From Elusimicrobiota bacterium (GTDB lineage Bacteria > Elusimicrobiota > Elusimicrobia > JACQPE01): a stretch of 64,000 nt of DNA. The stretch covers positions 62,001-126,000 of the forward strand of contig JACPAN010000015.1 in the NCBI GenBank assembly GCA_016180815.1, in the 5' to 3' direction. Within the stretch, counting starts at the first letter, position 1. The number at the start of each line of letters is the position of its first letter. The translations under genes were made by a program, and so were the position numbers. Positions 14,792-36,612 of the stretch are shown here, one piece after another. The notes beneath the pieces are model-generated. The model was not told where the DNA came from and searched no databases. It was given only the letters and a program-made list of their open reading frames with translations.

Positions 14792-14796
14792 AACAG

Positions 14797-15153
14797 TGGA
14801 GGTGGCCGGAATCGAACCGGCGTCCGAAAGCCTCACCCCGCAACATTTACAGGTTTAGTCCCCAGTTATACTTCGCGACCCCCCTGGGAACGGGGTTGAC
14901 CGCGAAGGCGCCTTATGTTGTCGGAAGCGGCCGGAGGCTGCTTGACTCACCGATTCCCTAGCCTTCTAAATGACGCTCTGACCGGGCTAGAAGGCGTTAC
15001 CCGGGGAGCGCAGGCTGAACCGCGGTTTAAGCGGCAGCCCAAGCGTACCCGACGTTATCGGCAGGTACAGTTTTGGCCGATTTTTACCTAGCCTCGGCCA
15101 ACTAGGACCTGAAGTTGCGTAGGATCCGCTCCCGTCGAACCCTGTGCACCCCC
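14797..15153 (-). ncRNA. ssrA: Transfer-messenger RNA (tmRNA)
   Basis: Rescues stalled ribosomes by adding a degradation tag. The 5' end GGGGGTG pairs with CACCTCC at the 3' end (one G-U pair) plus an A discriminator, and the T-arm is GGTTCGATTCC. The 5' half carries the conserved GGGTTCGACGGG. A tag reading frame runs from GCC at 15077 to TAA at 15027 and gives AKTVPADNVGYAWAAA, ending in AAA rather than the usual LAA. CCA is not encoded. Length 357 nt. Confidence 0.93.
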
Positions 15154-15198: not shown

Positions 15199-16452
15199 TT
15201 ATTTTAACAAGGAAAAGGGTGGTGGCCAGGAGAGGATTCGAACCTCCGTAGGGCATGGCCCGCCGGTTTTACAGACCGGTGCATTTAGCCGCTCTGCCAC
15301 CTGGCCGAAACTGCTAAACCCCCTGATTTCCAGGGGATTTTCTAAATCTTTTCCGCTCCCGTCACTAGCGCTTTTTGCTCCAGGTGGCATTAGGGTGTCT
15401 TTTTGAGAAGTAATTTCAACATTCCCTAAGCCTCCCAGGCTGTCTAAAACCCGAACGGCGCGCGCCTTATGCTCCGGCGAAAGATGCGCGTAACGCTGAG
15501 TCATTCGAAAACCGCTTTTGTGTCCCAGAAGCTCCCCGATCGTGGAAAGATCGATACCGCGCATCACGAGTTGCGATGCGAACGTATGCCTTAAATCGTG
15601 AAATCGAAAATCCCGGATGCCGGAGAGCTTGAGGGCCTTCTCAAACTGCGTCCTAATCCTACCAAAACGGCTCTCTTTTTTTCCCTTGCCGCTGACAAAC
15701 ACATAGGGTGAGTCCGGTTGTTTTACAACCGCCCGCAGAATTCGCATGAGCGGAAGGCTCATGGGAATAACCCTGGCCCCCTTGTTTTTGCTGTCCCGCA
15801 CGAAAATGAGCCCATTTTTAAAATCCACGTCGTCCCAGGCCAGATTCAATATCTCTCCCAATCTCATGCCCGAATGAATCGCGCAGATAACAATGGGGCG
15901 CAACCACTCGCAGGAGCACGAAACCAAAGAGGCAATGTCCCCTGCTTCCAAAAATCTGGTTCGCATATTGTTTTCCTTAAAAAACGGAACCGCCCTGACC
16001 GGATTTTCCTTGGCCTTGCCCCAAACCACAGCCCTCGAATACATAGTTTTTAAAACGGAAAGTTCGCGGTTGACACGTGCGCCGGAAACCTCCGTGCGCC
16101 GGACGGCTTTGTACCCCTCGATTTTAAGCGGCGTTATTTCGTCAAGAAAGCAGTTTCCAAAATGCCCCATGAGCTTATTCAAGATAATCTCATCATCGCG
16201 CCACGAACGCTTGTTGGGCTTGGCATGATTTTCTATATATAAAGCGATCATTTCCGCTAACGGAATACGCGCCTCTTTGACCTTGCCCAAAAACCGGCCC
16301 TCCGCTATCTCAACAATGCGCTTTTTCAAAATTTTCTGGGCCACAGTTTTATTGGGTCCGGCTTTTTCGCGAATTCTCCTGCCGTTAAAAACGTAATCAA
16401 TGTAAAAATCCCAACAACCGCCGGTCTTATTCCACTTTCTGTAAACCGCCAT
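15199..16452 (-). CDS. int: Tyrosine recombinase/integrase whose 3' end runs through tRNA-Tyr
   Basis: Site-specific recombinase of the integrated element. Residues 1-60 look like an arm-binding domain, about 65-160 a core-binding SAM-like domain, and about 165-335 the catalytic domain with R197, H285-x-x-R288, H311 and nucleophile Y321. After about residue 340 the sequence is no longer catalytic. Residues from about 383 onward are the in-frame translation of tRNA-Tyr (GQVAERLNAPVCKTGG) and the stop lies beyond the tRNA at 15199. The att core is therefore inside the gene. It is 9 bp downstream of the excisionase-like gene. Confidence 0.95.
   Translation of the reverse strand: MAVYRKWNKTGGCWDFYIDYVFNGRRIREKAGPNKTVAQKILKKRIVEIAEGRFLGKVKEARIPLAEMIALYIENHAKPNKRSWRDDEIILNKLMGHFGNCFLDEITPLKIEGYKAVRRTEVSGARVNRELSVLKTMYSRAVVWGKAKENPVRAVPFFKENNMRTRFLEAGDIASLVSCSCEWLRPIVICAIHSGMRLGEILNLAWDDVDFKNGLIFVRDSKNKGARVIPMSLPLMRILRAVVKQPDSPYVFVSGKGKKESRFGRIRTQFEKALKLSGIRDFRFHDLRHTFASQLVMRGIDLSTIGELLGHKSGFRMTQRYAHLSPEHKARAVRVLDSLGGLGNVEITSQKDTLMPPGAKSASDGSGKDLENPLEIRGFSSFGQVAERLNAPVCKTGGPCPTEVRILSWPPPFSLLK
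15220..15306 (-). tRNA. tRNA-Tyr (GUA anticodon), rebuilt by element integration
   Basis: Minus-strand class II tRNA: acceptor GGCCAGG/CCTGGCC, discriminator A at 15223 and an encoded CCA at 15220-15222. The anticodon loop is CTGTAAA (GTA), followed by a variable arm and T-loop GTTCGAATC. Its 5' half, from the anticodon loop to the acceptor, is identical to a copy at 36573-36611 and belongs to the att repeat. The whole tRNA lies inside the integrase reading frame, so its present promoter must come from the element. Confidence 0.95.
15268..15307 (+). repeat. Attachment-site direct repeat, tRNA-proximal end
   Basis: A 40-bp segment identical to 36573-36612. It starts in the anticodon loop and covers the whole 5' half of tRNA-Tyr. 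Bases at both edges differ between copies (15267 T against A; 15308 A against C), which defines the core. The copies are 21,305 bp apart. Confidence 0.92.
15380..15410 (+). repeat. Element-end repeat, left copy (possible integrase arm site)
   Basis: 31 bp matching 36454-36484 with two mismatches, in direct orientation, 73 bp inside the att core. The first ten bases, CCAGGTGGCA, also equal the 5' end of tRNA-Tyr. This copy is inside the integrase coding sequence. Confidence 0.7.
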
Positions 16453-16461
16453 AGCTAGATT

Positions 16462-16677
16462 TTACCTCCTGCGAGAGCTTTCATAATCAAATGGTTCAAC
16501 GCTCTGCTCCTTAATCCAGCAGTCGATTCTTTCCAAATCAAAACGCACGGCGCGGCCAACCTTGACGAAGGGAATGGTCCGTTCATGAATATGCTGATAA
16601 ATGGAGCCCTTGGTCATGCCCAGATAAGAAGCCGCCTCATCAACCGTTAAAAGCCGCTTCGTTGTCCTATCTTCCAT
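16462..16677 (-). CDS. Excisionase-like helix-turn-helix protein
   Basis: A 71-residue DNA-binding protein of the HTH_17/excisionase type: LLTVDEAASYLGMTKGSIYQH is the helix-turn-helix and IPFVKVGRAVRFDLERIDCWI the following wing. Such proteins bind attachment sites and direct integrases towards excision, or act as small repressors. It lies 9 bp upstream of the integrase and 9 bp downstream of the replication-relaxation-like gene, so all three are probably one transcript. Confidence 0.85.
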   Translation of the reverse strand: MEDRTTKRLLTVDEAASYLGMTKGSIYQHIHERTIPFVKVGRAVRFDLERIDCWIKEQSVEPFDYESSRRR

Positions 16678-16686
16678 ATTGCGCTT

Positions 16687-18090
16687 TTATTGACGACAAT
16701 TATCCCGTTGCTGGGCCACTAAACGAATAGCGGTTTTTTGGCCGGCGCAATCAATAACAGCGCCCCACCAAACAGCCTTGGCCGTGGCTTCATCGCGGCG
16801 GAGCAAGTAATAATGATGGGCTGATCGCACGCTTTGATAAATAACCCCGCTTTTAAATCCAACGATCCCCAAAGCCCATGTAGCGATCACCGCCATACAC
16901 GCTTGACCCCAGAGAAACCAAAGAAATACATGAAGGCCGTTTTCCATGTAGGGCCGCCGAGCTTGTTCAAAGAAAGTACGGGGCTTTTGAGTTAGGTCAG
17001 GAACGCTCAGCCGGGCCTGTTTTTCTTGATATTTTTTCATCACCCTATCTACAAAAACCCGGTAGTCCTCTTCTTCGTCTTTTTTAATCTGCGATTGGAG
17101 CGCCGCTGTTTTTTGCGTTAAATCAGCAGCGGCCGGTTCTTCATGAGCGCTGTGGCCGCTGCCGATTTCTTCTCCGGCCCGTGGCTCTTGCGGGGAATTC
17201 TCTTTCCCCGGCTCCGGCCCTACTGCCTCCGGCGACCAAGTTCTGTTCTGCGAGCCAAAACAATAGCTCCCCCCTTGAGCATCCCAAAGCAACCATTTAC
17301 CGTTTTCAATAAGGTCCAAGGTCGTGAAATAAAAAAAGGGCACATCTGGGAAAGGGCCTTCAAGTCCATCCATTAAGAAGCCCCTCAAAGAATTAACCAG
17401 GTTCTGATCCTTGCAGATATACCAGGCAGCCTTGACCCCGCGCCAATGCGTGAGTTCTCTAAAGGCTTCTTTGAGTTTTTCTTTGTTCTTTAAGGTTAAT
17501 TCGACTTCAATGGCTACCTGAAAACCCTCATCTTCCTTGGAACGCTTGAATCGGATCAATCCGTCAGGGACTTTCTTGTCCTTGGGGAATTGTTCCCAAA
17601 TCATGCTTTCCGGCATATAGTCCGTAATCAATGAATTTTTGGACAGTATTAAGCGGACCCTCGAACAGGAAATGCTGTGATTAAAGACGACGGATTTGTA
17701 TTGGCTTGGGTCAAAGCGGGAACGGACCCTTAGTTTTCCATGGCCTTCCAAAAGCTTGTATCCGGCCGGCGTAAAACAATACGCTTGTTTGGGCTTGCCG
17801 TAACTGTCGAAGGCGCGGAGAATGCCCTCGTCTTTAAGCTGGGCCAAAACCTTATAGGCATGGCTTTCATTGGAATAAATCAGCTTGGCTTCATGAATGG
17901 TTAAAAAGTCATGTTCCGCCATCACCCCCATTAAATCCAGCATCTTGGGGGTTATGGTTAATCGTTCCTTTTCCTTGCCCAGCTTTAAATCGTTGTTTTC
18001 TTTTAATCCGCCGTCCTCCTGAATCCCATTTCCTGAAGATTCCCTTTCTTTTGCTTTTCCCATTTCAATCATCTCTTCCTCAACCCCCAT
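16687..18090 (-). CDS. Replication-relaxation-like protein with winged helix and nuclease-like core
   Basis: A mobile-element protein. Residues about 45-115 form a winged helix (LTITPKMLDLMGVMAEHDFL... VLAQLKDEGILRAF). Residues about 130-250 resemble the replication-relaxation/PD-(D/E)xK-like domain, with PDG at 175-177 and EVEL (E195, E197) in the expected order. A Glu/Pro-rich linker leads to a hydrophobic segment around residues 385-410, so the C-terminus may be membrane-bound. Family members are linked to plasmid replication or mobilisation; this assignment is by resemblance. An alternative start is the ATG six codons in. It borders the nested palindrome locus directly upstream. Confidence 0.6.
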   Translation of the reverse strand: MGVEEEMIEMGKAKERESSGNGIQEDGGLKENNDLKLGKEKERLTITPKMLDLMGVMAEHDFLTIHEAKLIYSNESHAYKVLAQLKDEGILRAFDSYGKPKQAYCFTPAGYKLLEGHGKLRVRSRFDPSQYKSVVFNHSISCSRVRLILSKNSLITDYMPESMIWEQFPKDKKVPDGLIRFKRSKEDEGFQVAIEVELTLKNKEKLKEAFRELTHWRGVKAAWYICKDQNLVNSLRGFLMDGLEGPFPDVPFFYFTTLDLIENGKWLLWDAQGGSYCFGSQNRTWSPEAVGPEPGKENSPQEPRAGEEIGSGHSAHEEPAAADLTQKTAALQSQIKKDEEEDYRVFVDRVMKKYQEKQARLSVPDLTQKPRTFFEQARRPYMENGLHVFLWFLWGQACMAVIATWALGIVGFKSGVIYQSVRSAHHYYLLRRDEATAKAVWWGAVIDCAGQKTAIRLVAQQRDNCRQ

Positions 18091-18110
18091 TCCTTAAACC
18101 TCAAAAACCC

Positions 18111-18269
18111 TGCCCCGCCCCCTGCCATGTTGGGCTTTTCGCCGATAGCACCAGGTCACAACACCATTGCACAGACCTGGTGGGTGGAGGGTGGTCAGTC
18201 TTCGCGCCAGCGAAGACTGACCACCCTCCACCGCGAAAAGACCGGCTTTAGATGGCAGGGGGCGGGGCA
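18111..18269. repeat. Nested palindrome locus
   Basis: Several perfect inverted repeats are nested. An 18-bp outer arm (18111-18128 with 18252-18269) encloses an 8-bp arm (18135-18142 with 18233-18240), an 8-bp hairpin (18149-18156 with 18175-18182) and a 23-bp arm with a 4-nt loop (18183-18205 with 18210-18232). A further 9-bp arm (18161-18169) pairs outside, with 18303-18311. Nothing protein-like is convincing here. The position upstream of a replication-relaxation-like gene suggests an origin of replication or transfer, or a structured RNA. Confidence 0.85.
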
Positions 18270-18300
18270 ATAACACAATAAAACGAACAATTTGAATGAC

Positions 18301-18507
18301 GCCAATGGTGTAAACCGCAGCAAGGGGGTACCGAGCAGTCTGCTGCCCTGGTTTGCAGGTTCTACGCCAATAGGATAAGTGGTACAAACCAGTGGTGGAA
18401 AAAACCGGACCTAATTCTAAGGTGGTCCTCTTGTTATAAAATGAAATGCGCTTGTGTTGATGCTTCGACATAAGTGTATAGTCGCCGGTTGCCGCCGGCG
18501 ATTTTTT
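18301..18507 (+). ncRNA. Possible structured RNA or origin segment ending in a terminator
   Basis: This stretch continues the palindrome locus. It contains an 8-bp hairpin CTGGTTTG/CAAACCAG (18348-18355 with 18385-18392), a small AGCAG/CTGCT hairpin, and ends in a strong + strand terminator. No + strand gene precedes the terminator, so it may close a non-coding transcript starting within or before the palindromes. No known RNA family recognised. It could instead be purely a DNA structure. Confidence 0.35.
18482..18507 (+). terminator. Rho-independent terminator, + strand
   Basis: Perfect 7-bp stem TCGCCGG/CCGGCGA with a 6-nt loop followed by six T. The orientation is + strand, although the flanking genes are all on the minus strand. 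Confidence 0.7.
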
Positions 18508-18522
18508 ATTTAATTTGAATGC

Positions 18523-19266
18523 TCAGCCCGCCCCCTTATTTTTTGCAATTTTGTCTCCCATGCCTTCTTGGGCAATATTAAGAATCAGCGGGCTGTCGGC
18601 GGGGTCGCCCGTCTCATCAATGATATCTTGACTTTTGGTTCTTGGCGGTTTCTGAGCGATCTTGTCTAACCCCGCTGACGCGACCCACTGGGCAAGCTCT
18701 TTGACCTTGCTGGATAGATGCCGGCGCAACAGCTTTTCCGCGGCTTTTGAACCCTTCTTATCCAATCTTTTTTCCGCTTGCCACAAGACATCCCCTTCCA
18801 GACGCAACAAATAATCAATTATTTTTTTAAACAAATAATCCTTCAGTGTGTGGCCATCATTAAAAAAAACCGGAAATTCCCACACGTCCTTAGCCTCAAA
18901 GGTTCCATTTAAAATCAAGCGGTAGTATTCAGGAGGAAAGTTCTGCAGGATCGTGGCTATATTTCTAAAGGGAACGCGGTTTTTTTCATGCAACGTCAAA
19001 ACGACGGCCAGGCGCTCCGTATGTTCGGGGTGCAGGTAATAAGACTTGTGTCCGCCTTTATGAACCGGCGGCGGAAGAAGCCTGTAGCCAGGCGAGCTGT
19101 AGAGCTGCAATGCGCGACGAGTGATCTTAAAGGGATAACGCCGGCGAAAAAGATGGATGAACTCATGATATTCCAAGAGGGCCTTGATGGGCTTTCCTGC
19201 GCTTGCCGACAAAATAGACCGGGCTGTTTTTATTGGTCGCGCAGAAAGATCGCCTTCAATGTGCAT
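18523..19266 (-). CDS. MerR-like winged-helix regulator
   Basis: Predicted DNA-binding protein. The segment KITRRALQLYSSPGYRLL and the following HKSYYLHPEHTERLAVVLTL resemble the MerR-type winged helix-turn-helix and its wing, then the aromatic/leucine-rich RNIATILQNFPPEYYRLIL. The C-terminal half is helical and charged, without a known effector domain. ATG at 19266 is preferred over a TTG six codons upstream (at 19284), because a perfect dyad at 19277-19297 would otherwise lie in the coding region. Probably regulates element functions; target unknown. Confidence 0.55.
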   Translation of the reverse strand: MHIEGDLSARPIKTARSILSASAGKPIKALLEYHEFIHLFRRRYPFKITRRALQLYSSPGYRLLPPPVHKGGHKSYYLHPEHTERLAVVLTLHEKNRVPFRNIATILQNFPPEYYRLILNGTFEAKDVWEFPVFFNDGHTLKDYLFKKIIDYLLRLEGDVLWQAEKRLDKKGSKAAEKLLRRHLSSKVKELAQWVASAGLDKIAQKPPRTKSQDIIDETGDPADSPLILNIAQEGMGDKIAKNKGAG

Positions 19267-19276
19267 ATGCTTAGCA

Positions 19277-19297
19277 TTATGCAAATAGGTTGCATAA
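19277..19297. promoter_or_regulatory. Dyad operator upstream of the MerR-like gene
   Basis: Perfect 7-bp inverted repeat TTATGCA/TGCATAA separated by 7 nt, just before the predicted start codon. Position suggests autoregulation by the MerR-like protein. Confidence 0.45.
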
Positions 19298-21717: not shown

Positions 21718-22713
21718 TCACCATCGCGCTGCCAGGCTCACCCGATGCGTATCCCCCAAGAGTCCAAAGGGTTTGAAAGCATAGTCAATTTGAGCCCCCA
21801 TCAAACGGAAACCGACGCCTCCTGAGATTCCGTCGAGTCCGCTGTTGCGGGCCAACGGAGCCTGTTTGCCGAGGGCCGCAATATAGCCGCCGCGCAGGCT
21901 TAAGATCGGCAGGGCCTGATACTCGGTGCCGATATTAACACTGGTTTTATGGTTGATGAGTTGTTGTTTGACGTCCAAGGCTAAGGCGATGCCCATGGGG
22001 AGCCGGTAGCTTAAGCCTCCGGAAAGCGCGAGCGGCAACGGATCGCGCTGCTCGATAAATCGAATCCCTGGGCCTATGTTCTGCAGGGCTAGACCCAGGG
22101 ATATGGGGGAATGGGAACGCGCGGAAATCATCAATCCCAGATCAAAAGCAAAGGTATCGGCTCTATAGCCTGCAATCTCGCTTTGAATAAGCTTGGTATT
22201 TAATCCCGCCTGGATAAAGCCTATTTTTCTGCCATAGCCCAAGGATAAGGATTGATCCTGGGCTTTGATCGATCCTGTTTTTTCTCTGTTTTGTCCCCTT
22301 GCCTCGGAAGCACCTTGAGACAGAACGCTGATAGAGCCCGCGAATGTCCCTATTTTCCCCGGATACCCGAACCCCAGGAAATTGTATTGACTGTCTAAAA
22401 GCCACTGAGAATACATAGCCCCTATCTCAGGCTGATTCATTAAAGCCAATCCCGCCGGGTTCCAGTGCAAAGAGGAAATGTCATTAGCTAAAGCCGTGTA
22501 GGCCCCGCCCATGCCCACGGGCCTGGCTCCCACCGGGATATTCAAAAACTCGGCCCCTGTTTTTTGAGTTGTTTGAGCAAAAAGGGATAAAGCCATGGTC
22601 AAAATCCAGGCTAAAGCAGCCAGCACAGCCCCCAGCCAAACCTTGCTCCTTCGCGCCGGCCGCTCCGGCGGATAAACATGTTTAGTTATAAGAGGACACT
22701 CACCTGACCACAT
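21718..22713 (-). CDS. porV: PorV/PorQ-family outer-membrane protein
   Basis: Predicted outer-membrane barrel of the FadL-like PorV/PorQ group. The hallmark FLNIPVGARPVGMGGAYTALANDISSLHWNPAGLA follows a signal sequence (residues about 22-46). In type IX secretion, PorV shuttles cargo with C-terminal sorting domains to the cell surface. It overlaps the last 14 bp of the giant gene, with an AAAGGA Shine-Dalgarno 7 nt before the ATG, so the pair is translationally coupled. The giant protein ends in a sorting-like domain, supporting a cargo-partner relationship. Confidence 0.85.
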   Translation of the reverse strand: MWSGECPLITKHVYPPERPARRSKVWLGAVLAALAWILTMALSLFAQTTQKTGAEFLNIPVGARPVGMGGAYTALANDISSLHWNPAGLALMNQPEIGAMYSQWLLDSQYNFLGFGYPGKIGTFAGSISVLSQGASEARGQNREKTGSIKAQDQSLSLGYGRKIGFIQAGLNTKLIQSEIAGYRADTFAFDLGLMISARSHSPISLGLALQNIGPGIRFIEQRDPLPLALSGGLSYRLPMGIALALDVKQQLINHKTSVNIGTEYQALPILSLRGGYIAALGKQAPLARNSGLDGISGGVGFRLMGAQIDYAFKPFGLLGDTHRVSLAARW

Positions 22714-25700
22714 AAATTTTTCCTTTGGCTCTCAGAACTTCCGAGCCTTTTTTGGCTTCAACCAGATAGATGATTTGAGGCAGGCCGCTTAGGCTTTCCT
22801 CTTTGACAAGCTCCCCGGATATCGAATAAATCAGGATGCGCGCGGAATCAGCCAGGCCGGTTTCAATGTGAAGGGTGGGTTTGGCTCCGCCTATAGCGGG
22901 ATTGGGATAGGCATAAATTTCTCCCAATTGGAATTTTGGATCAGGTCCCAAGGCTTGCGGAGTGTCAAGAGCGGCCGCTGTTTTAGCGCCGCCTTTTTGT
23001 TTCTCGCCGTCTTGTGTTTGCGCGGGGATTTGACCGGATAAACCGTCGGCTTGAACAAAGAGCGAAGCCCCTTGAATCACGATGTCTTTAGCAAAAAGAT
23101 TGCCGGTAATCGAGCTGTTGCCCGTGGCTTTCACCGAGGAGTTCGGCGCATAAAGAATAACCGCGGCCCGCGATCCTCCCGCAAATTCGTGGGTTCGGTC
23201 GAAATCCGAGAACACGACCAAGTCTGCGGCCCGTCCCGAGGCGTTCATCGATCCTGCGCCGGTGATGACCAGAGGCCCTGTCAGAAAAATGCGCACGGGA
23301 CCGCTGGAAATTAAAGCCGCTTGGGAATCGATGCTCATCCCGGAGAAAAGATAGCTGCCTGCGTCCAACGTCAAGATCGCGCCCTTGCTGACAACAAGCG
23401 CCCCATCCGGGCTCAGGAATTGGCTTGGGATTAAGCCGTTGTCGTTGGTTTGGGCCAAATCAGCTTTGATGGAAGCTAAATCAATGGGAGAGGCATGAAC
23501 GGAATCCGAAGCGATGGTTTGCGTGCCGATAATAACGCTGTTTCCTTTAAGCTCGATGGCCGGGGCCATCACGCTTCCCGTGAGGCGGACATTGCCCGAA
23601 GCGTTGTAGGCGCCGTTGGAGACGATTTTACCCACAATATCCGCCGTTCCCGAGGCGGTGATGGTAGCCGTCCCTGCCGCGATCATGGCCGTCTCCCTTA
23701 AAGGCGTCACGGACAAAGCGAGTGTCCTCGCAGTCTCAAGATTCCCCAGATTATCCCGGCTTCTGTATTTGACGGCATGCTCCCCCTGGGCAGGCAAAGT
23801 AAACGCCGCAGAATAGACCTGAAAAGCGTCGTCATCAACGGCAAATTCCGTTTGCGATACATCGGAGCTCACCCCGTTAACCTTGGGATCGACCGCAGAA
23901 AGAGTAATGAGGGTATTGGGTGTAATCACGGTCCGGCCAAAAGCGCTGAAGGCGCCCTCCCCCAAACTCAACTCAGTGGTGGGCGGGGTGTTATCCACCG
24001 CGATTTGGACGGTCTTTATCGTTTCTTGATTTCCCACCACATCCACGGAAAAGAATTTCACTTCATGAAACCCTTCAGCAGAAATAGCGAATGTGGCGCT
24101 AAATACGGCAAACGATGATTGATCGACGCTGAACTCGGTCCGGGCCACGCCCAAACCGATGCCGTCGCCCACCTCGACTAAATCATCAATAGCGGAAAAC
24201 CCAAGCGATGTGTCCTTGGTGACAAAAACAGGGTTGTCCCCGAATTTGGGCTCTCCGGCAACCAGGCTTGTCCTGGGCGCCAAAAGATCATGAATCACTT
24301 CAAAAACTCCGGACACGGTAATTGTTGAGTTATTTACCCAGTCCTTGGCCTCAACCTCCAAAACCCAAAGACCATCGTCAATAGAAAGAGGGTCGATCAC
24401 TTGTCCTTGATGGACGATAAGTCTGGTTGGACCTCTGGTTGTTCCGGTGTTCTGACGTTGCACCAATTCCAGGCGCAGAATGTCGGGAGCGGGATCGAAA
24501 TTGTCGGAAACAGAAGCGTTGATTGTGATCGAGCCTTGGGAAGCGACAAAGCGTTCCCCTCCTGCCGGGGAAGAAACGGTCACAACAGGAGGGGTCCGGT
24601 CAATCAAAATCTTTTCGGTTTGATCCTCGCCTTGGTTTCTGGATAAATCCTTGCCGGAAATGACGATGGTTTGCTCGCCTTCCAGGGCGTCTTGAGCGGC
24701 CGAGAGTTTAAACGTCCAAGAAAAAGACGGCGGCTCGTTTTTGTCAAAAGCCTGCGAGTTTCCGGCTTTAACCACCGGCTCGCCTAAAAGCCGTTCAGAA
24801 GCGATGAAGCGTATCGTGGCCGTGGACAAGGGACCGGCGACAGATGGTGAAGAAACATCAACAATGCGGATTAAATCAAGCGACAAAAATTCCAGCACTG
24901 GGCTTGCCTGTTCGGTCGTGGCCCGCGAGAGCGTGCTCCTAAACTTGATTTGGCGATGGGTTATATCGGCTGACGATAAAAGATCGATAGGAAAGAAATT
25001 TTGTCCGTCCGAGGTGAACTCGTGTTGAATGGAGCCTTGCGCCAAATTCTGCGTGACCTGGAAATGATTGATTTTGGACAGCTCAGGCAAGCTGATAAAG
25101 GGCGTTTCCACCGTGCCCAGCAATGTGCCCTCTTGGGAGCCGCCGCCTCCGTTGCCTGAAGGGCCGGAGAGTATTCTAAAGCTCCGGACATCCAAACCGA
25201 TGGGCACAGGCTCAAAGGAGCGGGCTTCCAAGCCGAAGCCCGCTCCGCGAAGATCGGGGTCCCCAAACGTCAGTTGCCCCGTAAGAATTTCATTGCCGTT
25301 GACGGACAACCGGACATTGCCCTGGCTAACCGTGACAAGATAATCGAGGAAATCGAACGTTTGCGCCGGAGGCAGGTCGATATCCCTTCTGCCCAACACC
25401 TGTTCCCTGGAATTGTTGAACAAACGCGCCAGCCCGGCGGCTGTGTCGATTTCCAAAACGCCTCCAAATTGATCATCCTGCATAAAAATCAACAGCCTGG
25501 AATCCGATGTTTTGAGCGCGGCGCGCAGCTCCAAGCGATATTCCTGCGAGGCGCTTAATTCCTGCATAAACAAATAGTTAATATCCCCGTCATCCGGGGA
25601 GGAAAGCTTTAAGAACGATTGCATGGTCGCGCCTTCAGTCACTATTTGTTCGCTGGGAGGCTGGGTAAAGAATCGATTGATTCTTTTTTGAACGAAGGGG

Positions 25701-28700
25701 CCGAATTGTTCGGGCAGCACAGTCGCCTGATAATCCACCAAGACCCCGCCCGGACCTCCGCCGTTGCCCGGGGAGCCTCCTGTCGGCGGCTCGGGCCCTC
25801 CCGTGAAATACCGGAAGAATTCAAACTCCGCGTCCAGGGTTCCGTCGGGAACCAGGGTCTTGGCTCCATAGGCCACCTGGGGTAGGGCGTCGAAGGCAAA
25901 GGGCGAAGTAGGAAGAGCAGCCTCAAGGCGTAGAACGCCGTCTTCAAAAACGCGCACTAATTGTTCCGCGAGCGAGTTGGGATCAGGCCCCACGCTCAAT
26001 AGGTAAGTCCTGGTTTCTCCGGTACCCGCTCCGATTGGAAACTCGCCGATCGTTGCCGTCTCAGGAGATAATAAATCGCCGTTTGTAAAACGCAGCGTGC
26101 CCTGGCCGGGCTCGATCAATAGCTCCAGGGCCGTGTCTTGATCGCTGATAACCGTCATGCTTAAGGCTGTCTGTTCATTCATGGCCCGGCCCCGCATCTC
26201 CGTGACATAGCCCTGATCAATGTTCAACTCAAAATTTTCCTGGGTATAAAAGGCATGGGCGAAGCCGAAGGTCGTCAATCTTAAACTCCCCGGCGTCAAT
26301 TCCTGGGATACGTTTAAAATAGGAATCGAGGCCAAGAATTGGAAAGGCGGAGCAAAGCCGGTGGGAAGCTCGGCAGTTCCCGCGGCCTGATACTCTACCG
26401 TCCATTGCCCGGTTCCCGGATCGGGACCCGGCCCCGGACCCCCGCCATCAATCAATTTCACCCCGCCGTTGAAGGCCGTCAGCCCGTTAAACACGTTGAC
26501 CGGGTCATTGGCCTGGATGAATAAGGGGGCTGTTCCCGAGAACGTGGGCGGCGTGTTGTCCACCACGATCACCACGCTTTGGGCGGAGGAATGATTGTCC
26601 AGGTTATCCGTGGCGTCAAAAGTCAAAACAAAACGGCCCTCTTCGGAAAAATTCATGGGGAGCATGACAGGCTCGGAGTTACCTTGATCAGCGGGGCATT
26701 CATCTGTGACTGGGTCAGGCTCAGGACAGGGCTCCTGAGCGTTGCCGTTTAACCGCTCCAGCCTGAATACGGTTTCCCTGACCCCTGAGCCTGCGTCCGT
26801 GGACCTAAAATCAATCATGTCCGCGCTGTTTACATAAATCGTCCCGTTTTCCCGGAACACTCCAGAGGGTAGAATAAGTTCCGTGGCAGGCGGGGTATTG
26901 TCTAGGGCGATTTTTATTGTTTGGGTTGACTCTGAGTTGCCCTCGGTATCCTGCGCGTAAAATCTCAAGTCATAGGTCCTGTCTTCAACGCCCAGAAGAT
27001 TAAGGGCCTTGGAAAAAACAGGGGACGTGGATTGGGGATTGAGCACGGCTTCATCAAAAATGGAATCTAAGCCCAAGTTCAAGCGTTCCACCCCGATGCC
27101 CTGGCTGTCCCCTAATTCATTGGCATCGTCTTTGACATCAAAGTTAAGCGTTGTATTAGCCGTTATAAAAACAGGCTCCTGCCCTAATCGCGGCAGTCCG
27201 ATGAATAGCGTTGTCCTTGGCGGTAGAATATCCTTGTGCACGATTTCAAAAGGACCGGAAACAACCGAAGTCGAGTTAAAAACAGAATCCTGCGCTTGCG
27301 CGCTCAGCGTCCAAATCCCGTCATCCAGGCTTAGAAGATCAAGCTCCTGGCCATTAGCCACGGGAGCAAAAGCCGGTCCCGTTGTTTCTCCTTTGTCCTG
27401 CGTTTGAATCAAAGTAGCCGAAGAAATTGGGGCGGGATCAAAATTGTCTTGAACCAGAACGTCGATTTTGGCCTTGTCTCTGGGATGAATGAGCTTGATA
27501 TTGGATACGGGGGATTTTACGGTGATTCTTGGCGGCGTCACATCCACCAGAACAAGAGCGGTTTCATCTTGTCCTTCATTGCCGGACAAGTCCCTTCCCT
27601 TAATAACGACCGGGATCAATCCTTCCTGGATGCCGTTATCGATTAAGAAATTAAAATTCCAGGACAAAGACGCAGGCACATTGCCGTCAACGGCGTTTAA
27701 GTCGCCGATTGTGACCGAAGGCTTGCCCACAAGTCTTTCCGAAGCCAAAAATTCGATGTTTAACGGCTGTCTTTTACTGATGGCTGAGGCGGACAATTGG
27801 ACCTTGCTGTCAAATTCCAGACGCAAAGCCGTTAAAACAGGGCTTTTCTTTCCTTTATCATCCCGGCTTAACGTGCTTTTGAATTTGATTTGCCCTGCCG
27901 ATATTGCCGTCTGGGAAAGCTCGCTAACGGGAAAGAAATTCGTTCCATCATTGGTGAATTCATGAATAATTTGCCCCTCGTTCACAAATTGAATGGGGGT
28001 AAAGCCGGAAAACAAAGCCGATGTCGAAACATTGATGAACGGCGTCTCCAATGTCCCGGCCAAAGCCCCTTCCTGAACGGTTTTAGCGATGCGGAAATAA
28101 TCGATTTCCATTTGTGGAAGGCCCTGCGCGACGAAGGGCTCGACAGCCGCCACGCCGAAGAACCCGCCCGGATGCAAAGAAGCGGATTTAGGCGGCAATT
28201 GCGCCTCAAAAAGCGTTTGATTATCGGCAAAAACTTTGGCTTTCCCGCTATTGACCTCGATTGCATAGGCATGGAAGCTCAACGCATCAGGCATGGGCGC
28301 CGAGGCGATGGGCGCGCCCAGCATATCCGCCTGAATCCTTGCGCCTCCCGCCTGATCGATTAAAAGAATTCCGGCAAAACTTTCGTCCTCAAAGCCGAGG
28401 GCTAAGAGGGAATTCGGGCTCGCTGGCCGTCCTCGTAGTTGCAGTTGATAAGACTCGTTTGAGTTTAACGCGAGGGGAAATTGATACGCAATGCCACCTA
28501 AGTCCGTTTGGACTTGGAGAATATCCTCGCGTATTTTTTCTTCGGTTTCTTCAAGCGTGGGCAAATTCGCGCCTTCCTTGATGCGCGCGAGTCCAACCTC
28601 ATTCGGCAACCGGGCCGCGTCATAAGAGAAAACGGTTTCCTGCCCTGTTGCGCCCCTGGCCGCCCGGAAAAAATCGATTTCCGCGATGCCTTGACCGATG

Positions 28701-31700
28701 GGCGCCAGGCTCTCCACACCGAAACCGGCAAAAGTCAAAGCAGCAGGGTCCGGGGGCAAGGGCGGGTTTGTCCTAAAAGCAAAACCAATGGGCTCGTTAT
28801 TAATAAAAAATGTCATCTCTTCTCCGGTCGCGCCGCCGTTATTTAGGCCATAGGAATTGAATTCCTGAGGATCAAAGCCCCGCTCGCGGATATTCATCAT
28901 TTGCATTTCGACCTGCACATCCTGCGTTCTTTGAATGGAGACATTGCCGTCATGATCGACTCTCAATTGGAAGGAGTTCCTCTCATCGTTGAATTGCATC
29001 AGCAAAGCCGCCCTGTCGACGACGCGCCCCCGCATCTCAATGCCGTAAGGCTCGTCTGAATTAAATCCGGTGTTGACGAAAAGATAAGAGACAAAACCTA
29101 AGGCGCCTTCCACGCCCACGCGCAATGCGCCGGCCATGATTTCCTCAATCACCGGTTGCGCGTTGGAAAGCACGGTTTGCAAAGGCGGATTATTGTGCTG
29201 GGGCAAAACATTGCCTTCATAAACCAGCAATCCCTCCGGGTCTTTGCGGATAACGAAGGATTCAACCTCAAGCCCCACGTTTTTAATATCCGCCGCAATC
29301 GCGTTCCTTGCGCCGAACCCGGTCAAAGTGTCAGCCAAACTTCCTTCAAAAGGCGGCAGAAAGCCGGTAAAAAGAATTTGCCCGTCTATGGAAAGCTTTA
29401 AATCGCCTCCCTGTACGCTTACGCCCCAGGTGTGGAAATTACCCACATCGATTCCTTGGGCCGCATAAAGAATCTGCCCGCCGGACACCAAAGCCAAATG
29501 CCCCGTCTTATCCAAAAACAGCCTGCCCTGGAATTGCCCGTCGAAGAAATTTAATGTCATGACCGACTCCAAATCTCCGATGGGCCGGGCTTTCAATTCC
29601 AAGGTGTATTGTTGGGAGCTGTTGATATTGGGATTTAAGCTGTAGAAAAACCCGCCCTGAGTCCGGGCCGCGGCCCTTAAAAATCGCTGATCGATGACTT
29701 GTTGGGAAACAATTCCTCCAATAGTGTCTTGGCGAAGAGGCATGGTTCTGACGATGGGGCTGAAGTCTTGAGGAATCACCCCGGCTTCGTAGCTGATCAT
29801 GGGTTTGACCGGAGTCTGTTGAGGCAATTGGGGACCGTCCGTAAAATAACGGAAGTAGTCGATTTCCACATTGCTGGAATTCGCCCCTGCGCCGAAAGGA
29901 TCGCCCGCCCCAAATTCCGCGAAGGGCATGAAGGGCAACTCATGGGCCGGGATATGAGGCGGCAGAAACTCGCGCACATCCTGCTCAACAATCGTTGTTT
30001 CATCCGCCAGAACCTTGACCAGAAAATCCTTGACCGCAATGCGGTAATCATGGAATTCCATGGGCTCGTTAATATCGAACTCCTGCTGGAACCATCCGCT
30101 GCCGAAGGCAAGCTCCTCAGGGTTGTCCCCGACAGTCAATCGCCCTTGCCCGGCGCCGCTAATCGTCAAAAGAATCCCGTAGCGGTTGTTGAATCCGCCC
30201 ATTCTTAGAGCCGAGTCCTCGTCAACGGGCCTGGCCCTCATCTCAAGGACATAGCCCTTATCCGAAGAAATCCTCAAATTGGGCTGCTCGTAAATCAAAG
30301 CCTCCCCTTGAAATGCGCTAATTTTGAGCAAACCCTCTTCGACGCTTCGCTCAAAAGCAGGGGCAAAGAGAGGAGAAATCCTAAACCTTGGCGTGTTTTC
30401 TTCAGGCAGAACGTCCCCCGTATATTCCACGCTCCAGGGGGAAAGCAAAGAAGGGTCAACCTCTCCTTGCCCCGCCAATCTTACCGAGGCGTGGGCGATT
30501 TCCAAATCCGTCAGCGTGTTCAAGGGGTCGGCGGCCCGGACATAAAGCGTGTCCGAGAATGAAGGAGGGGTGTTGTCGATGATTATGGTCGCCGCATGGC
30601 CTGCCTCCGCGTTATCGACATGGTCCACGGATTTAAAAACAAGAATGAATTCGCCTTCGGAGGGGAAAATCAACGGCTCTTGAGGATTGAAAACCTGGAA
30701 TTCCCCGCCGTTGACGCTGTACAGAGTATGTTTAACGCCGGCCAAATTGTCTTGGGTTTCAAAACTAAAGGAATCGTTGCTCGTTGCGTAATAAACGTTG
30801 TTTTCTTTGAAGAGTTCTCTTGATGCTTTGAGTGTTGTTTGCGGAGGGGTTTGATCTAAGGCGAGGATTGCCGTCTGCTGTTCTTCCTGGTTGCCGGAGA
30901 AGTCTGTGGCAGAGTAGCCGATGGTATGAGGACCATCCCCGGCCCCTAAAAGGGTCACCGTGGTGATGAAGGGCTTATCTGGCGGGTCTTTGTTGGAAAA
31001 GATATGAGTAAAAAGTCCGTCAATGGTTACAGTTAGACTGGCCACGCCCACGCCTAAACCGTCCCCCGGAGAAAGAAGCCCGTCGTTTGAAGTCAATTCC
31101 AAAGGCGTGTCCGGGCCGATGATTAAAGGCTCGGCAATGATCTGAGGCGTGCCCACCCGCAGTACGGTCCTGGGCGGCACCCGATCCTCCCCCCGTTTAA
31201 TGGCCACGATAAAGGTGCCCAAGGAGGATGTAGTGCCGATCACCACGTTTAACGATGTATCTAATTGGGTGGTGATGTCGATCAATGAGCCGATTTGATA
31301 TAGACGAACGTTTGCCTCATCTTCCGGATTCAACCCCGCATCGTCATAGGGTATACGCAATGCCACATTACCCTGCGTATTGGCCAAAGAAATGACTCCA
31401 AATTGAGGAACAACCGTCTGCACCGCCTCCTCCGGCGGCAGAACGTCTTCGCTTTCTAAGAAAGCATAGATGTGTCCTGGATGAGAAACTTGGTCAAAGG
31501 CAAGCTCGGCGTTGTTAATTCCAAGTTGAACAGAAATGTTATTGCCTCGGCGCAAAACTTGAGTTCCGGGTATCTCGTTCTCCAGAACCATCGCCCGAAG
31601 GATTCCTTGCGGACGAGTTGGGTCAAAAGCAACGGGAAAAACCCCAGCCGAACTATAAACATAAGCTGGTTCTCCGGTATCTGTCTCCAACCAACAAAGC

Positions 31701-34030
31701 CCCAAAGACCTCGGAGTGGAAAATTGATTGTGATCAATAAACCTGTACGAAAGGGTTGGGGAGCCATCTAAAGGTATCGAATTGCCTTGAGGGACAATAT
31801 TGATGGTTTCAATTCTATCGGCGCAGGGAACAAGAAAAGGATCTGGAAATTCGGGAATGTTGGCCTGAGGAAAGACCGGACTTATTTTAGGCTCAAGACT
31901 TTCATTTTGATTCGATTGAAAAGCGGGATGACAGATCAAATTGTTGGAATCCGAACCTAGGCAGAATTCCCGTGTTTGGGAAAAGACAGTGCCGGCTACC
32001 GTAAGATCATTAAAGCAGGGGCTTGTACTGGGGTTGCAAATATGAGGTGAAATAGTACGGCTGAAAATACCCGCAGGGACGACAACACGATGCGGGCTGC
32101 CGCTTAGAATCCGTCTATTCCAATTAATTTTTAGTTCCAATGGGACTATGGTTTCGCCGAGAAGACCCAACATTCCTGAAAAATTTAATTCAGCGACTTC
32201 ACTGATAGTTTTGACAACCACACCTCCTTCGACCACTTCAGATTCAGTGCCGGGGATATGAGGAGCTTCAATCGGAAATTCTTCAATGCGCCAACGAAGC
32301 TGAGCTTGCTCCGGTGAAAGCAACCCTCTGTGAACCAGCCGGGAAACTCCCCGACTCCAAATTTTAAAATTAGCCAAATTGATCTGAAACTCGCTGGGTG
32401 ACGAATCCGAGCCATCTTGGGTCGAAGAATTGCCCGCTCGGTCAATGGCGACGATACTATAGCTGCCATCCGGCAAAGACCCGATGTTAAAAGGCGCATT
32501 GACTAAATTTTCTCCAGAAAAACTTATTTCATTGATGACGTTCTCTGATGAATCTTGTAGTTTAACCGACGCTATGCCGCTGCCTTCATCCGTTGCTTCA
32601 ACGGCCAATGAAGGATCGTCAAAAGTGGCCGCCAACTTTGGGCCCGAGATGTCCAATATGAATGAAAAATTTTTGATATTTCCCGATTTATCTTTAGCCT
32701 CTACGCGATAGGTCCCATCCGGCAGACCGGACAAAGAGAACTCCGTGCTTTGAGGAGTGGTTTCTCCGCCAAGGAATCTTGACTGAGAAATTTCCGAACC
32801 GTCAGGACCGAACAGTTTGATTGACTCCAAACCGCTTTTAGGGTCCTCGGCCTGAGCCAAAAGCTTGGACGTATTGGTAAATTGGCCTTCAGGCAAGGAT
32901 ATTTCGGTGTCGGCAACGATAAGGTCTAAAGTCGGCGGGGTCCCATCAATCTCAAATCTGGTCTCTTGGCAGTTGGTTTGGTTGCGGATGTTCGTCCAAC
33001 AGGCGATGAGCCGGTGTTCGCCGTCATGAAGACCCTCCGGCATCCAGTCGGTAAAAACAAAGTCTTCGCGGCCGACTCCCCTCGGTAGCACTCCATTGCT
33101 GCTGCCGTCTGCATAAACCGGCGGGTCTCGGTCCCGGCAGCCCGGAAGATCATCCGGGCATCCGCTGGTTTCGATATCGGTATGTAATGGGTCATGGAAG
33201 CTGGTTAATCCTCCATAAGCCCAGGTTCGAACATGCCCGGTGATTGAAATGTTATCCACGAAAATATCCAACGAGTCTAAGTTGGTCCCGATTTGAGAAT
33301 CCAGCCGGACTTTTAAAAATGTGCTTGCAGAATTATGGACATTGACTAGAAAACCGTTGGTCCGGACGCGTCCCAATTGGTCGATAAATTGAACGGTGAA
33401 ATTGCTGGCGGTATGATTGATATGGGTTAGAGGATTTTCGCTGACGCCGAGCCCAAGATCAATGTGCATGTGCGCGGGAAAGCCACCGGATGTGCCGGCG
33501 GGGCCGACGGGGGAACGCGCACGACTTGTGGTGCGCAAATTTTCCCCTTGTGCATTTAGAACAGGGGTTCCATTTATTAAAACGAGCTGGTTATCTGCGT
33601 TTTCCGCAGACAATGCATAATCTGCCACCGTCCGATTTGTACCTTGCAGCCAGCGCACGATACACAAATTTTCCTCATCGGTTCTTGTCAGGGTAAATTC
33701 TCCTGAGTCTATAGGTAGGGAAGCATTGTTGAACATATGAAGATAGCGAAAAAAATGGTTGTTATCGGTGAGTAAGCTTAAGATAAGAATACCATCGTTG
33801 GCGTAATTCAGTGAGGTTATCCGTCCTGCTTCTAAGAGTGGAAGTGATACGCCCTCTGCCGTTCCGTAATCAATACCTTTATGGAAATCCGGAGATGGTA
33901 ATAGTCGCGGCCCAAAATCCGAAGTAACGGTGAAGCCGGGATCCACGGCTGTAATATGAGCATGGGCTATATTGGTGACAGTAAAAAAGCATCCCGCCAA
34001 AATAGCTTCGAGCGCAGCATACTTCAACAT
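22700..34030 (-). CDS. Giant secreted protein: M23 peptidase, Ig-like and lectin-like repeats, sorting domain
   Basis: About 3,776 residues, exported by a signal peptide (1-25). Residues 30-260 are an M23/LytM peptidase domain with H51-x3-D55, H99 in RYLHM and H188-x-H190, a complete zinc/catalytic set. Then come Ig/OmpL47-like modules marked by TPP or PPRT segments (near 954, 1064, 1157, 2169, 2269, 2381, 2496, 3147, 3254, 3351) and jellyroll modules ending in EIDYFR-like strands (1200-2130 and 2560-3000). A bactofilin/DUF7305-like solenoid spans about 3450-3665. The last 75 residues resemble a type IX sorting domain (IYAYPNPAIGG, ILIYSISGELV). It is coupled to genes on both sides. Start is ATG at 34030 or the GTG just before. 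Confidence 0.85.
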   Translation of the reverse strand: MLKYAALEAILAGCFFTVTNIAHAHITAVDPGFTVTSDFGPRLLPSPDFHKGIDYGTAEGVSLPLLEAGRITSLNYANDGILILSLLTDNNHFFRYLHMFNNASLPIDSGEFTLTRTDEENLCIVRWLQGTNRTVADYALSAENADNQLVLINGTPVLNAQGENLRTTSRARSPVGPAGTSGGFPAHMHIDLGLGVSENPLTHINHTASNFTVQFIDQLGRVRTNGFLVNVHNSASTFLKVRLDSQIGTNLDSLDIFVDNISITGHVRTWAYGGLTSFHDPLHTDIETSGCPDDLPGCRDRDPPVYADGSSNGVLPRGVGREDFVFTDWMPEGLHDGEHRLIACWTNIRNQTNCQETRFEIDGTPPTLDLIVADTEISLPEGQFTNTSKLLAQAEDPKSGLESIKLFGPDGSEISQSRFLGGETTPQSTEFSLSGLPDGTYRVEAKDKSGNIKNFSFILDISGPKLAATFDDPSLAVEATDEGSGIASVKLQDSSENVINEISFSGENLVNAPFNIGSLPDGSYSIVAIDRAGNSSTQDGSDSSPSEFQINLANFKIWSRGVSRLVHRGLLSPEQAQLRWRIEEFPIEAPHIPGTESEVVEGGVVVKTISEVAELNFSGMLGLLGETIVPLELKINWNRRILSGSPHRVVVPAGIFSRTISPHICNPSTSPCFNDLTVAGTVFSQTREFCLGSDSNNLICHPAFQSNQNESLEPKISPVFPQANIPEFPDPFLVPCADRIETINIVPQGNSIPLDGSPTLSYRFIDHNQFSTPRSLGLCWLETDTGEPAYVYSSAGVFPVAFDPTRPQGILRAMVLENEIPGTQVLRRGNNISVQLGINNAELAFDQVSHPGHIYAFLESEDVLPPEEAVQTVVPQFGVISLANTQGNVALRIPYDDAGLNPEDEANVRLYQIGSLIDITTQLDTSLNVVIGTTSSLGTFIVAIKRGEDRVPPRTVLRVGTPQIIAEPLIIGPDTPLELTSNDGLLSPGDGLGVGVASLTVTIDGLFTHIFSNKDPPDKPFITTVTLLGAGDGPHTIGYSATDFSGNQEEQQTAILALDQTPPQTTLKASRELFKENNVYYATSNDSFSFETQDNLAGVKHTLYSVNGGEFQVFNPQEPLIFPSEGEFILVFKSVDHVDNAEAGHAATIIIDNTPPSFSDTLYVRAADPLNTLTDLEIAHASVRLAGQGEVDPSLLSPWSVEYTGDVLPEENTPRFRISPLFAPAFERSVEEGLLKISAFQGEALIYEQPNLRISSDKGYVLEMRARPVDEDSALRMGGFNNRYGILLTISGAGQGRLTVGDNPEELAFGSGWFQQEFDINEPMEFHDYRIAVKDFLVKVLADETTIVEQDVREFLPPHIPAHELPFMPFAEFGAGDPFGAGANSSNVEIDYFRYFTDGPQLPQQTPVKPMISYEAGVIPQDFSPIVRTMPLRQDTIGGIVSQQVIDQRFLRAAARTQGGFFYSLNPNINSSQQYTLELKARPIGDLESVMTLNFFDGQFQGRLFLDKTGHLALVSGGQILYAAQGIDVGNFHTWGVSVQGGDLKLSIDGQILFTGFLPPFEGSLADTLTGFGARNAIAADIKNVGLEVESFVIRKDPEGLLVYEGNVLPQHNNPPLQTVLSNAQPVIEEIMAGALRVGVEGALGFVSYLFVNTGFNSDEPYGIEMRGRVVDRAALLMQFNDERNSFQLRVDHDGNVSIQRTQDVQVEMQMMNIRERGFDPQEFNSYGLNNGGATGEEMTFFINNEPIGFAFRTNPPLPPDPAALTFAGFGVESLAPIGQGIAEIDFFRAARGATGQETVFSYDAARLPNEVGLARIKEGANLPTLEETEEKIREDILQVQTDLGGIAYQFPLALNSNESYQLQLRGRPASPNSLLALGFEDESFAGILLIDQAGGARIQADMLGAPIASAPMPDALSFHAYAIEVNSGKAKVFADNQTLFEAQLPPKSASLHPGGFFGVAAVEPFVAQGLPQMEIDYFRIAKTVQEGALAGTLETPFINVSTSALFSGFTPIQFVNEGQIIHEFTNDGTNFFPVSELSQTAISAGQIKFKSTLSRDDKGKKSPVLTALRLEFDSKVQLSASAISKRQPLNIEFLASERLVGKPSVTIGDLNAVDGNVPASLSWNFNFLIDNGIQEGLIPVVIKGRDLSGNEGQDETALVLVDVTPPRITVKSPVSNIKLIHPRDKAKIDVLVQDNFDPAPISSATLIQTQDKGETTGPAFAPVANGQELDLLSLDDGIWTLSAQAQDSVFNSTSVVSGPFEIVHKDILPPRTTLFIGLPRLGQEPVFITANTTLNFDVKDDANELGDSQGIGVERLNLGLDSIFDEAVLNPQSTSPVFSKALNLLGVEDRTYDLRFYAQDTEGNSESTQTIKIALDNTPPATELILPSGVFRENGTIYVNSADMIDFRSTDAGSGVRETVFRLERLNGNAQEPCPEPDPVTDECPADQGNSEPVMLPMNFSEEGRFVLTFDATDNLDNHSSAQSVVIVVDNTPPTFSGTAPLFIQANDPVNVFNGLTAFNGGVKLIDGGGPGPGPDPGTGQWTVEYQAAGTAELPTGFAPPFQFLASIPILNVSQELTPGSLRLTTFGFAHAFYTQENFELNIDQGYVTEMRGRAMNEQTALSMTVISDQDTALELLIEPGQGTLRFTNGDLLSPETATIGEFPIGAGTGETRTYLLSVGPDPNSLAEQLVRVFEDGVLRLEAALPTSPFAFDALPQVAYGAKTLVPDGTLDAEFEFFRYFTGGPEPPTGGSPGNGGGPGGVLVDYQATVLPEQFGPFVQKRINRFFTQPPSEQIVTEGATMQSFLKLSSPDDGDINYLFMQELSASQEYRLELRAALKTSDSRLLIFMQDDQFGGVLEIDTAAGLARLFNNSREQVLGRRDIDLPPAQTFDFLDYLVTVSQGNVRLSVNGNEILTGQLTFGDPDLRGAGFGLEARSFEPVPIGLDVRSFRILSGPSGNGGGGSQEGTLLGTVETPFISLPELSKINHFQVTQNLAQGSIQHEFTSDGQNFFPIDLLSSADITHRQIKFRSTLSRATTEQASPVLEFLSLDLIRIVDVSSPSVAGPLSTATIRFIASERLLGEPVVKAGNSQAFDKNEPPSFSWTFKLSAAQDALEGEQTIVISGKDLSRNQGEDQTEKILIDRTPPVVTVSSPAGGERFVASQGSITINASVSDNFDPAPDILRLELVQRQNTGTTRGPTRLIVHQGQVIDPLSIDDGLWVLEVEAKDWVNNSTITVSGVFEVIHDLLAPRTSLVAGEPKFGDNPVFVTKDTSLGFSAIDDLVEVGDGIGLGVARTEFSVDQSSFAVFSATFAISAEGFHEVKFFSVDVVGNQETIKTVQIAVDNTPPTTELSLGEGAFSAFGRTVITPNTLITLSAVDPKVNGVSSDVSQTEFAVDDDAFQVYSAAFTLPAQGEHAVKYRSRDNLGNLETARTLALSVTPLRETAMIAAGTATITASGTADIVGKIVSNGAYNASGNVRLTGSVMAPAIELKGNSVIIGTQTIASDSVHASPIDLASIKADLAQTNDNGLIPSQFLSPDGALVVSKGAILTLDAGSYLFSGMSIDSQAALISSGPVRIFLTGPLVITGAGSMNASGRAADLVVFSDFDRTHEFAGGSRAAVILYAPNSSVKATGNSSITGNLFAKDIVIQGASLFVQADGLSGQIPAQTQDGEKQKGGAKTAAALDTPQALGPDPKFQLGEIYAYPNPAIGGAKPTLHIETGLADSARILIYSISGELVKEESLSGLPQIIYLVEAKKGSEVLRAKGKIYVVR

Positions 34031-34033
34031 CAC

Positions 34034-35198: not shown

Positions 35199-35290
35199 TC
35201 AAAAGCAAAAGCCGGGCTGCCTGAAAATAAAGACAACGGCGCGTTCCCAAAAAACGCGCGTTCATCTTTATTGTCTTTCGGCAGCCCGGC
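35199..35290 (-). terminator. Riboswitch-controlled intrinsic terminator
   Basis: On the minus strand GCCGGGCTGCC (35290-35280), the 3' part of the aptamer, is complementary to GGCAGCCCGGC (35221-35211), followed by TTTTGCTTTT. The inner part also pairs (AAGACAA/TTGTCTT and AACGCG/CGCGTT). Aptamer and terminator therefore compete for the same strand. Ligand binding should block the terminator, giving an ON switch. Confidence 0.75.
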
Positions 35291-35360
35291 CCTCTCCGCT
35301 TAAAGCAGAGAACCTTTACGTCGGCTTTGCGCCCCCTGATCGCTCAGGGTTTGCCGTTTC
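35279..35360 (-). ncRNA. Cyclic di-GMP-I (GEMM-I) riboswitch aptamer
   Basis: The minus strand contains the GEMM-I signature: GGCAAACC, then a short hairpin capped by a GCGA tetraloop (CTGA-GCGA-TCAG), then GCGCAAAGCC, a second helix (TTCTCTGC/GCGGAGAG) and the closing GCCGGGCTGCCG. Order, spacing and the GNRA loop match the class. It lies about 230 bp upstream of the secreted-protein/giant-protein/PorV operon on the same strand. Confidence 0.87.
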
Positions 35361-35415
35361 GTTTGCAAAAAATTAACAATCCTTCAAAGAACGATCCAGC
35401 TTTTAACCTGGCTTA

Positions 35416-36572: not shown

Positions 36573-36611
36573 TTTACAGACCGGTGCATTTAGCCGCTCT
36601 GCCACCTGGCC
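36573..36611 (-). pseudogene. Orphan 5' half of tRNA-Tyr
   Basis: Identical to the 5' half (acceptor to anticodon loop) of the complete tRNA-Tyr at 15220-15306, but what follows on the minus strand (TGTCAAGAACCC) is not tRNA. This is the original chromosomal half displaced by integration, still next to its presumed promoter. Confidence 0.9.
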
Positions 36612-36612
36612 G
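36573..36612 (+). repeat. Attachment-site direct repeat, distal end
   Basis: 40 bp identical to 15268-15307; marks the right boundary of the integrated element. Confidence 0.92.

Follow-up and report, generated by a model that had tools for sequence, protein, structure and literature searches.

Nested palindromes at the probable transfer origin of a MOBC-type mobilizable island in Elusimicrobiota

Introduction

The closest described counterparts of the locus considered here are the transfer origins (oriT) of MOBC elements. In the plasmid CloDF13 (MOBC1), the nick site (nic) is reportedly GGGTG/GTCGGG; the oriT lies upstream of the mobilisation genes, with mobB, the coupling protein gene, located between it and mobC. 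In ICEKp1, also a MOBC1 element, nic is listed as GGTTG^GTCGCG (PMC7755788; ^ marks the nick), while in pMET1 and HPI-ECOR31, again MOBC1, it lies inside an inverted repeat and is therefore present in two copies (PMC2262945). MOBC relaxases, including TraX of pAD1 from Firmicutes, have been published as a winged helix combined with a restriction-nuclease-like fold, and the pAD1 oriT has direct repeats some way 3′ of nic; a 2025 review considers recruitment, transfer and religation of MOBC-nicked DNA unclear, with no covalent intermediate seen (PMC12857230).

Here we analyse a 64-kb stretch (the window) of a 2.85-Mb Elusimicrobiota genome, in which positions 18111-18269 carry nested palindromes beside a relaxase-like gene. 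We propose, with a probability of about 0.87, that this region is the oriT of a MOBC-type integrative mobilizable element (IME), recognised and nicked by the adjacent relaxase; nicking and transfer are inferred.

The Island and Its Relaxase

The palindromes belong to a genomic island of about 21.3 kb, which extends from a tRNA-Tyr gene to its 40-bp repeat and includes the following features:

15199-16452, minus strand: tyrosine integrase (Pfam Phage_integrase, E=1.2e-33; PHROG integrase, E=4e-72)
15220-15306, minus strand: tRNA-Tyr gene
15268-15307: attL, 40-bp direct repeat inside tRNA-Tyr, 100% identical to 36573-36612
16462-16677, minus strand: excisionase-like HTH_17 protein (Pfam HTH_17, E=9.8e-13; PHROG excisionase)
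16687-18090, minus strand: MOBC-type (MobC/replication-relaxation) relaxase homologue, with an N-terminal winged helix and a PD-(D/E)XK nuclease-like domain
18523-19284, minus strand: MerR-like DNA-binding protein, 41% identical to the counterpart adjoining oriT in a cousin island
36573-36612: attR, 40-bp direct repeat, a partial tRNA-Tyr copy

At its 3′ end, the integrase ORF crosses the tRNA-Tyr gene, so that attL is contained in this end. On the minus strand, the integrase is followed, moving away from the tRNA, by the excisionase-like HTH protein, the 467-aa relaxase homologue and then the palindromes, which lie directly upstream of the relaxase gene and abut its start. With an integrase, an excisionase, tRNA-associated att repeats and a relaxase of its own, the island has the attributes of an integrative mobilizable element, and conjugation or secretion-system genes were absent among the island proteins scanned. 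The island cargo comprises a 3777-aa protein that has Ig-like repeats and weakly matches a secretion tail (22700-34033, minus strand) and an outer-membrane-like protein (21718-22713, minus strand); a c-di-GMP-I riboswitch is found upstream of the cargo genes (35277-35365, minus strand). A tmRNA gene with the tag ADNVGYAWAAA (14794-15153, minus strand) directly adjoins the integration site.

The relaxase homologue matches the NCBIfam MobC model NF041423 with E=1e-13 and 51 bits, short of the curated cut-off of 200, a result that supports distant homology only; profile alignment with Klebsiella MobC by hhalign gave E=4e-12. Residues H138, D176, E195, E197 and K201, which include the acidic residues and the lysine expected of a PD-(D/E)XK-type catalytic site, are invariant across 27 relatives and three enterobacterial MobC proteins (the H-D-E-E-K comparison covered 15 proteins, Klebsiella and Yersinia MobC among them). 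An AlphaFold2 model predicts an N-terminal winged helix-turn-helix fold (structural match, Z about 10). When modelled by itself, the nuclease domain (pLDDT 88.7) aligns mostly with PD-(D/E)XK enzymes, among them SdaI, N.BspD6I, FokI, BsmI and Hjc, although the scores are modest (best Z 8.5; 7.8 for the nickase N.BspD6I and 6.4 for Hjc); the models thus agree with the two-domain fold published for MOBC relaxases. Other searches were negative: Foldseek returned no match to the relaxase model with E below 0.001, a PDB sequence search with the profile yielded PadR-type matches only, a Pfam search gave no Replic_Relax match, viral contigs searched with the relaxase alignment contained no relatives, and tblastn of this relaxase and of a related one (L024) against plasmids found no match. 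As judged from its sequence and predicted fold, the neighbouring gene product is a MOBC-type relaxase, whose homology was found directly and whose nicking activity is predicted.

The Palindromes and the nic Core

The first-pass annotation had noted a dense nest of perfect palindromes at this locus; indeed, perfect arms of 23 and 18 bp are present and nested, accompanied by weaker stems:

18111-18128/18252-18269: outer stem P1, 18 bp, perfect arms, with compensatory changes in relatives
18132-18142/18233-18243: weaker stem, 10 of 11 bp paired
18149-18182: short hairpin P2, arms 18149-18157/18174-18182, 9 bp, a weaker stem
18183-18205/18210-18232: long hairpin P3, 23 bp, perfect, with a 4-nt loop; its 5′ arm holds the nic core
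18189-18198, plus strand: nic core GGGTGGTCAG, in the P3 5′ arm, with the predicted nick at 18193^18194
18299-18400, plus strand: three imperfect direct repeats (starts 18299, 18364 and 18386), about 105-205 nt beyond the predicted nick in the 3′ direction

Further stems lie to the right, at 18446-18460/18465-18479 and 18480-18503. Six inverted repeats scoring at least 12 within 200 nt occur in the whole window, compared with one or two per first-order Markov simulation; P1 and P3 are its sole nested pair of strong inverted repeats, and none was seen in six simulations. A 9-bp link between 18161-18169 and 18303-18311 had also been reported: the sequence match exists, but the pairing is absent from the paralogous copies in the same genome (C28 and C19), and matches of this kind are expected 0.3 times in 400 nt by our own estimate, roughly the chance level; its interpretation as a pseudoknot was therefore rejected.

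The core GGGTGGTCAG is of the MOBC type GGKTG^GTCGSG, and the predicted nic lies within an inverted repeat adjoining the mobilisation genes. A core near GGTTGnGGGAGGG[T/G]G^GTC[A/G]GG is shared by 24 loci, on the strand opposite the relaxase gene. CloDF13 likewise bears a core GGGTGGTC(A/G)GG on the strand opposite its mob genes, and the 11-mer GGGTGGTCGGG is found exactly once in that plasmid, on the strand opposite the mob operon and upstream of it, as in the window. In CloDF13, Klebsiella pEA1509_B and Yersinia ruckeri pYR8, an inner inverted repeat upstream of the mobilisation genes covers the motif and is enclosed by outer arms of 13-14 bp (e.g., CCGGCCCCCGTCAG/CTGACGGGGGCCGG; 14 bp in CloDF13), so that the hairpin arm is nested in an outer inverted repeat as it is here. 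Unlike CloDF13, which is a plasmid with mobB interposed before mobC, the window has longer arms (23 and 18 bp) and one extra hairpin, and its pairing arm lies downstream of nic, whereas that of CloDF13 is upstream; the right-hand side of the plasmid site pairs over about 5 bp only, with mismatches. The nic of ICEKp1 is also akin to the window core; ICEKp1, HPI-ECOR31 and pMET1 are gammaproteobacterial, and are likened to the window here by their published descriptions. The oriT assignment follows from the MOBC-like nic core, from the nested repeats like those of CloDF13 plasmids and from the position of nic within an inverted repeat in pMET1 and HPI-ECOR31. It takes up one of the two origins that the first-pass annotation had offered for a site beside a replication-relaxation-like gene, namely a transfer origin.

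The other was a replication origin: the palindromes might be the rolling-circle type origin, or the termination site, of the excised island, with the MobC-like protein as initiator. Some relaxases do start replication of excised elements as well; the family name itself includes replication-relaxation, and the PHROG family “replication initiation by nicking” matches the protein weakly (E=0.0028). CloDF13-type plasmids, however, have the same palindrome at the mob region even though their replication starts elsewhere, at a ColE1-like origin (ColRNAI replicon), and we regard a replication role as very unlikely. Long inverted repeats upstream of a winged-helix protein gene could also be read as a site bound by a dimeric repressor of the mobilisation genes, rather than as a transfer origin. 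The arms far exceed the needs of an operator, though, they include a nested outer stem, and they coincide with the MOBC nic core; among the alternatives weighed here, this is the least probable.

With the oriT assignment retained, the imperfect direct repeats at 18299-18400 are a possible binding site of the relaxase. Similar CCAGTG repeats occur downstream in four relatives (L018-L020 and L022); the direct repeats of pAD1 are likened to them by description, those in the window being only imperfect.

Conservation and Covariation

The motif is found within a hairpin arm beside a relaxase gene in 23 Elusimicrobiota elements and one alphaproteobacterium (the 24 loci), where the pairing around the predicted nick spans 7-14 bp on the left and 7-23 bp on the right. 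The palindrome is kept in two paralogous islands of the same genome, C28 at a tRNA-Arg and C19 at a tRNA-Glu with 56-bp att repeats, in the cousin island of genome G001 (tRNA-Lys), in most other relatives of the phylum and in one Geminicoccaceae genome. Contig C7 of the same genome has two more MobC-like genes, each with its own palindrome upstream (L083 4276-4429 and 9812-9864), one of which carries a variant GAGTCGGG core.

Two layouts could be distinguished. In type A (window, C28, C19, L017-L020, L022, L034 and L035), the partner of the nic arm is downstream; in type B (G001, L027-L029, L031-L033, L037-L041, L043, L057 and the enterobacterial plasmids), it is upstream. In both, pairing extends to the left and to the right of the predicted nick, and the two flanks are joined by the outer stem. 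Two further loci (L025 and L026) have the palindrome without GGTC, and three whose whole upstream region is present (L023, L024 and L030) have no such palindrome; nor was a nested one seen in the upstream stretch examined of the Bacteriovorax relatives (L048-L052 and L054-L056). In L021 (2330-2400) and L022 (1408-1555) the palindrome is truncated at one end, beside relaxase coding sequence, which looks like a deletion or an assembly error.

The first-pass annotation had named covariation in related elements as a check, and here the stem pairing proved to be preserved: double compensatory changes occur in 29/49 pairs of type A (7 sequences) and in 20/35 pairs of type B (12 sequences), while single-sided (wobble) changes are rare in both alignments. 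All stems together contain 1319 Watson-Crick pairs versus 7 G-T and 10 A-C; in minimum-free-energy folds, wobble pairs number 47/1094 on one strand versus 42/1111 on the other, compared with 16/114 in tmRNA. Pair-preserving changes accompanied by so little G-T wobble argue for a function of the palindrome at the level of DNA rather than RNA; selection acting on inverted repeats or DNA hairpins would be expected to leave this pattern.

These data bear on a third alternative, in which the region would act as RNA: a 5′ leader or structured non-coding RNA that, for example, regulates the relaxase mRNA or serves as an antisense RNA. Both strands fold very stably (RNA fold z-scores of -13 on the plus and -11 on the minus strand), the region directly abuts the relaxase start and the stems show compensatory changes, all of which would suit such an RNA. 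Nevertheless, G-T intermediates are almost lacking and wobble pairs have no strand bias, the CloDF13-type palindrome sits upstream of mobB and more than 2 kb from mobC, and an Rfam scan of 18000-18600 found no family at the gathering score; we consider this reading highly unlikely, ranking it between the replication origin and the repressor site. Accordingly, the undescribed structured RNA of the first-pass annotation finds no support in the palindromes, which lack wobble and strand bias and match plasmid oriT DNA, and its expected support from an RNA family search did not materialise; it may hold for the module described below.

A Plus-Strand Module beside the Probable Transfer Origin

Downstream of the direct repeats, the plus strand carries:

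18435-18442, plus strand: TATAAAAT box, preceding the two-hairpin module
18443-18511, plus strand: two-hairpin small-RNA-like module ending in a terminator (stem 18480-18503)

The plus-strand terminator noted earlier is thus present, although matches to the terminator consensus are no more frequent than by chance (1 found versus 1.3 expected); what argues for it is conservation in G001. There, the segment 18426-18511 is 84% identical over 86 bp, in an element where relaxase identity is only 26%. The fold is strand-specific (z=-6.65 on the plus versus -2.25 on the minus strand) and 6/25 of its pairs are G-U. Given this strand-specific, G-U-containing fold and its conservation in G001, the module, which is separate from the oriT, probably encodes a small RNA or marks where a short transcript ends. 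In a search across the phylum, G001 gave the only convincing match; those in G260 and G256 were rejected because they resemble coding sequence, and that in G079 because only terminator-like sequence was common.

The mobilizable island SGI1 requires a small RNA, sgm-sRNA, coded beside its oriT (PMC9299015), and may be regarded as a loose analogue of the predicted RNA module, by analogy only; unlike the window, SGI1 has the tyrosine-recombinase-like MpsA instead of a MOBC protein. In the cousin island (L010 8758-10463), an AbiEi/AbiEii type IV toxin-antitoxin pair is located beside the oriT.

Proposed Transfer and Religation

According to the proposed mechanism, the relaxase would nick the plus strand at GGGTG^GTCAG (18193^18194), and a type IV secretion system supplied by a helper would export this strand in the 5′-to-3′ direction, proceeding toward the cargo genes and with the relaxase gene last. 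A search of the host's own genome for PF03135 (VirB4) found none; contig C24 (L084, G000:C24 10000-26000) contains TraC-like, TrbI-like and TraD-like genes, identified with other models, followed by an integrase, and possibly represents a helper element, an integrative conjugative element or a remnant.

The outer stem P1 would draw together both ends of the transferred strand in its linear form, and one hairpin arm would then pair across the cut, generating a double-stranded, ligatable nick that an ordinary DNA ligase could seal, with no covalent relaxase-DNA link. The idea of a built-in splint is based on the kinship of MOBC enzymes with restriction nucleases, for which no covalent DNA link has been observed. 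When the two cut ends were cofolded as separate DNA strands, they came to lie adjacent in 27/27 sites; this partly restates that the repeat spans nic, as the splint itself nearly does, and for some sites, including the three enterobacterial plasmids, shuffled sequences gave interaction energies in an overlapping range. The nested palindrome may be tentatively viewed as a device by which MOBC elements of different phyla splint their own DNA, in which the arm switches sides between lineages (downstream in type A, upstream in type B) and always bridges nic while a ligase seals the strand; this is a proposal to which we give somewhat less than even odds, and it is less certain than the oriT assignment.

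Conclusions

MOBC-type mobilizable islands and their predicted transfer origins are now placed in Elusimicrobiota, for which a limited literature search found no paper on either subject. The nested layout around the predicted nic is common to the Elusimicrobiota islands and to CloDF13. The conserved repeat bridging nic makes the question of religation simply testable by mutations of the arms, and the layout shared with CloDF13 hints at how MOBC nicking enzymes could reseal the transferred strand.
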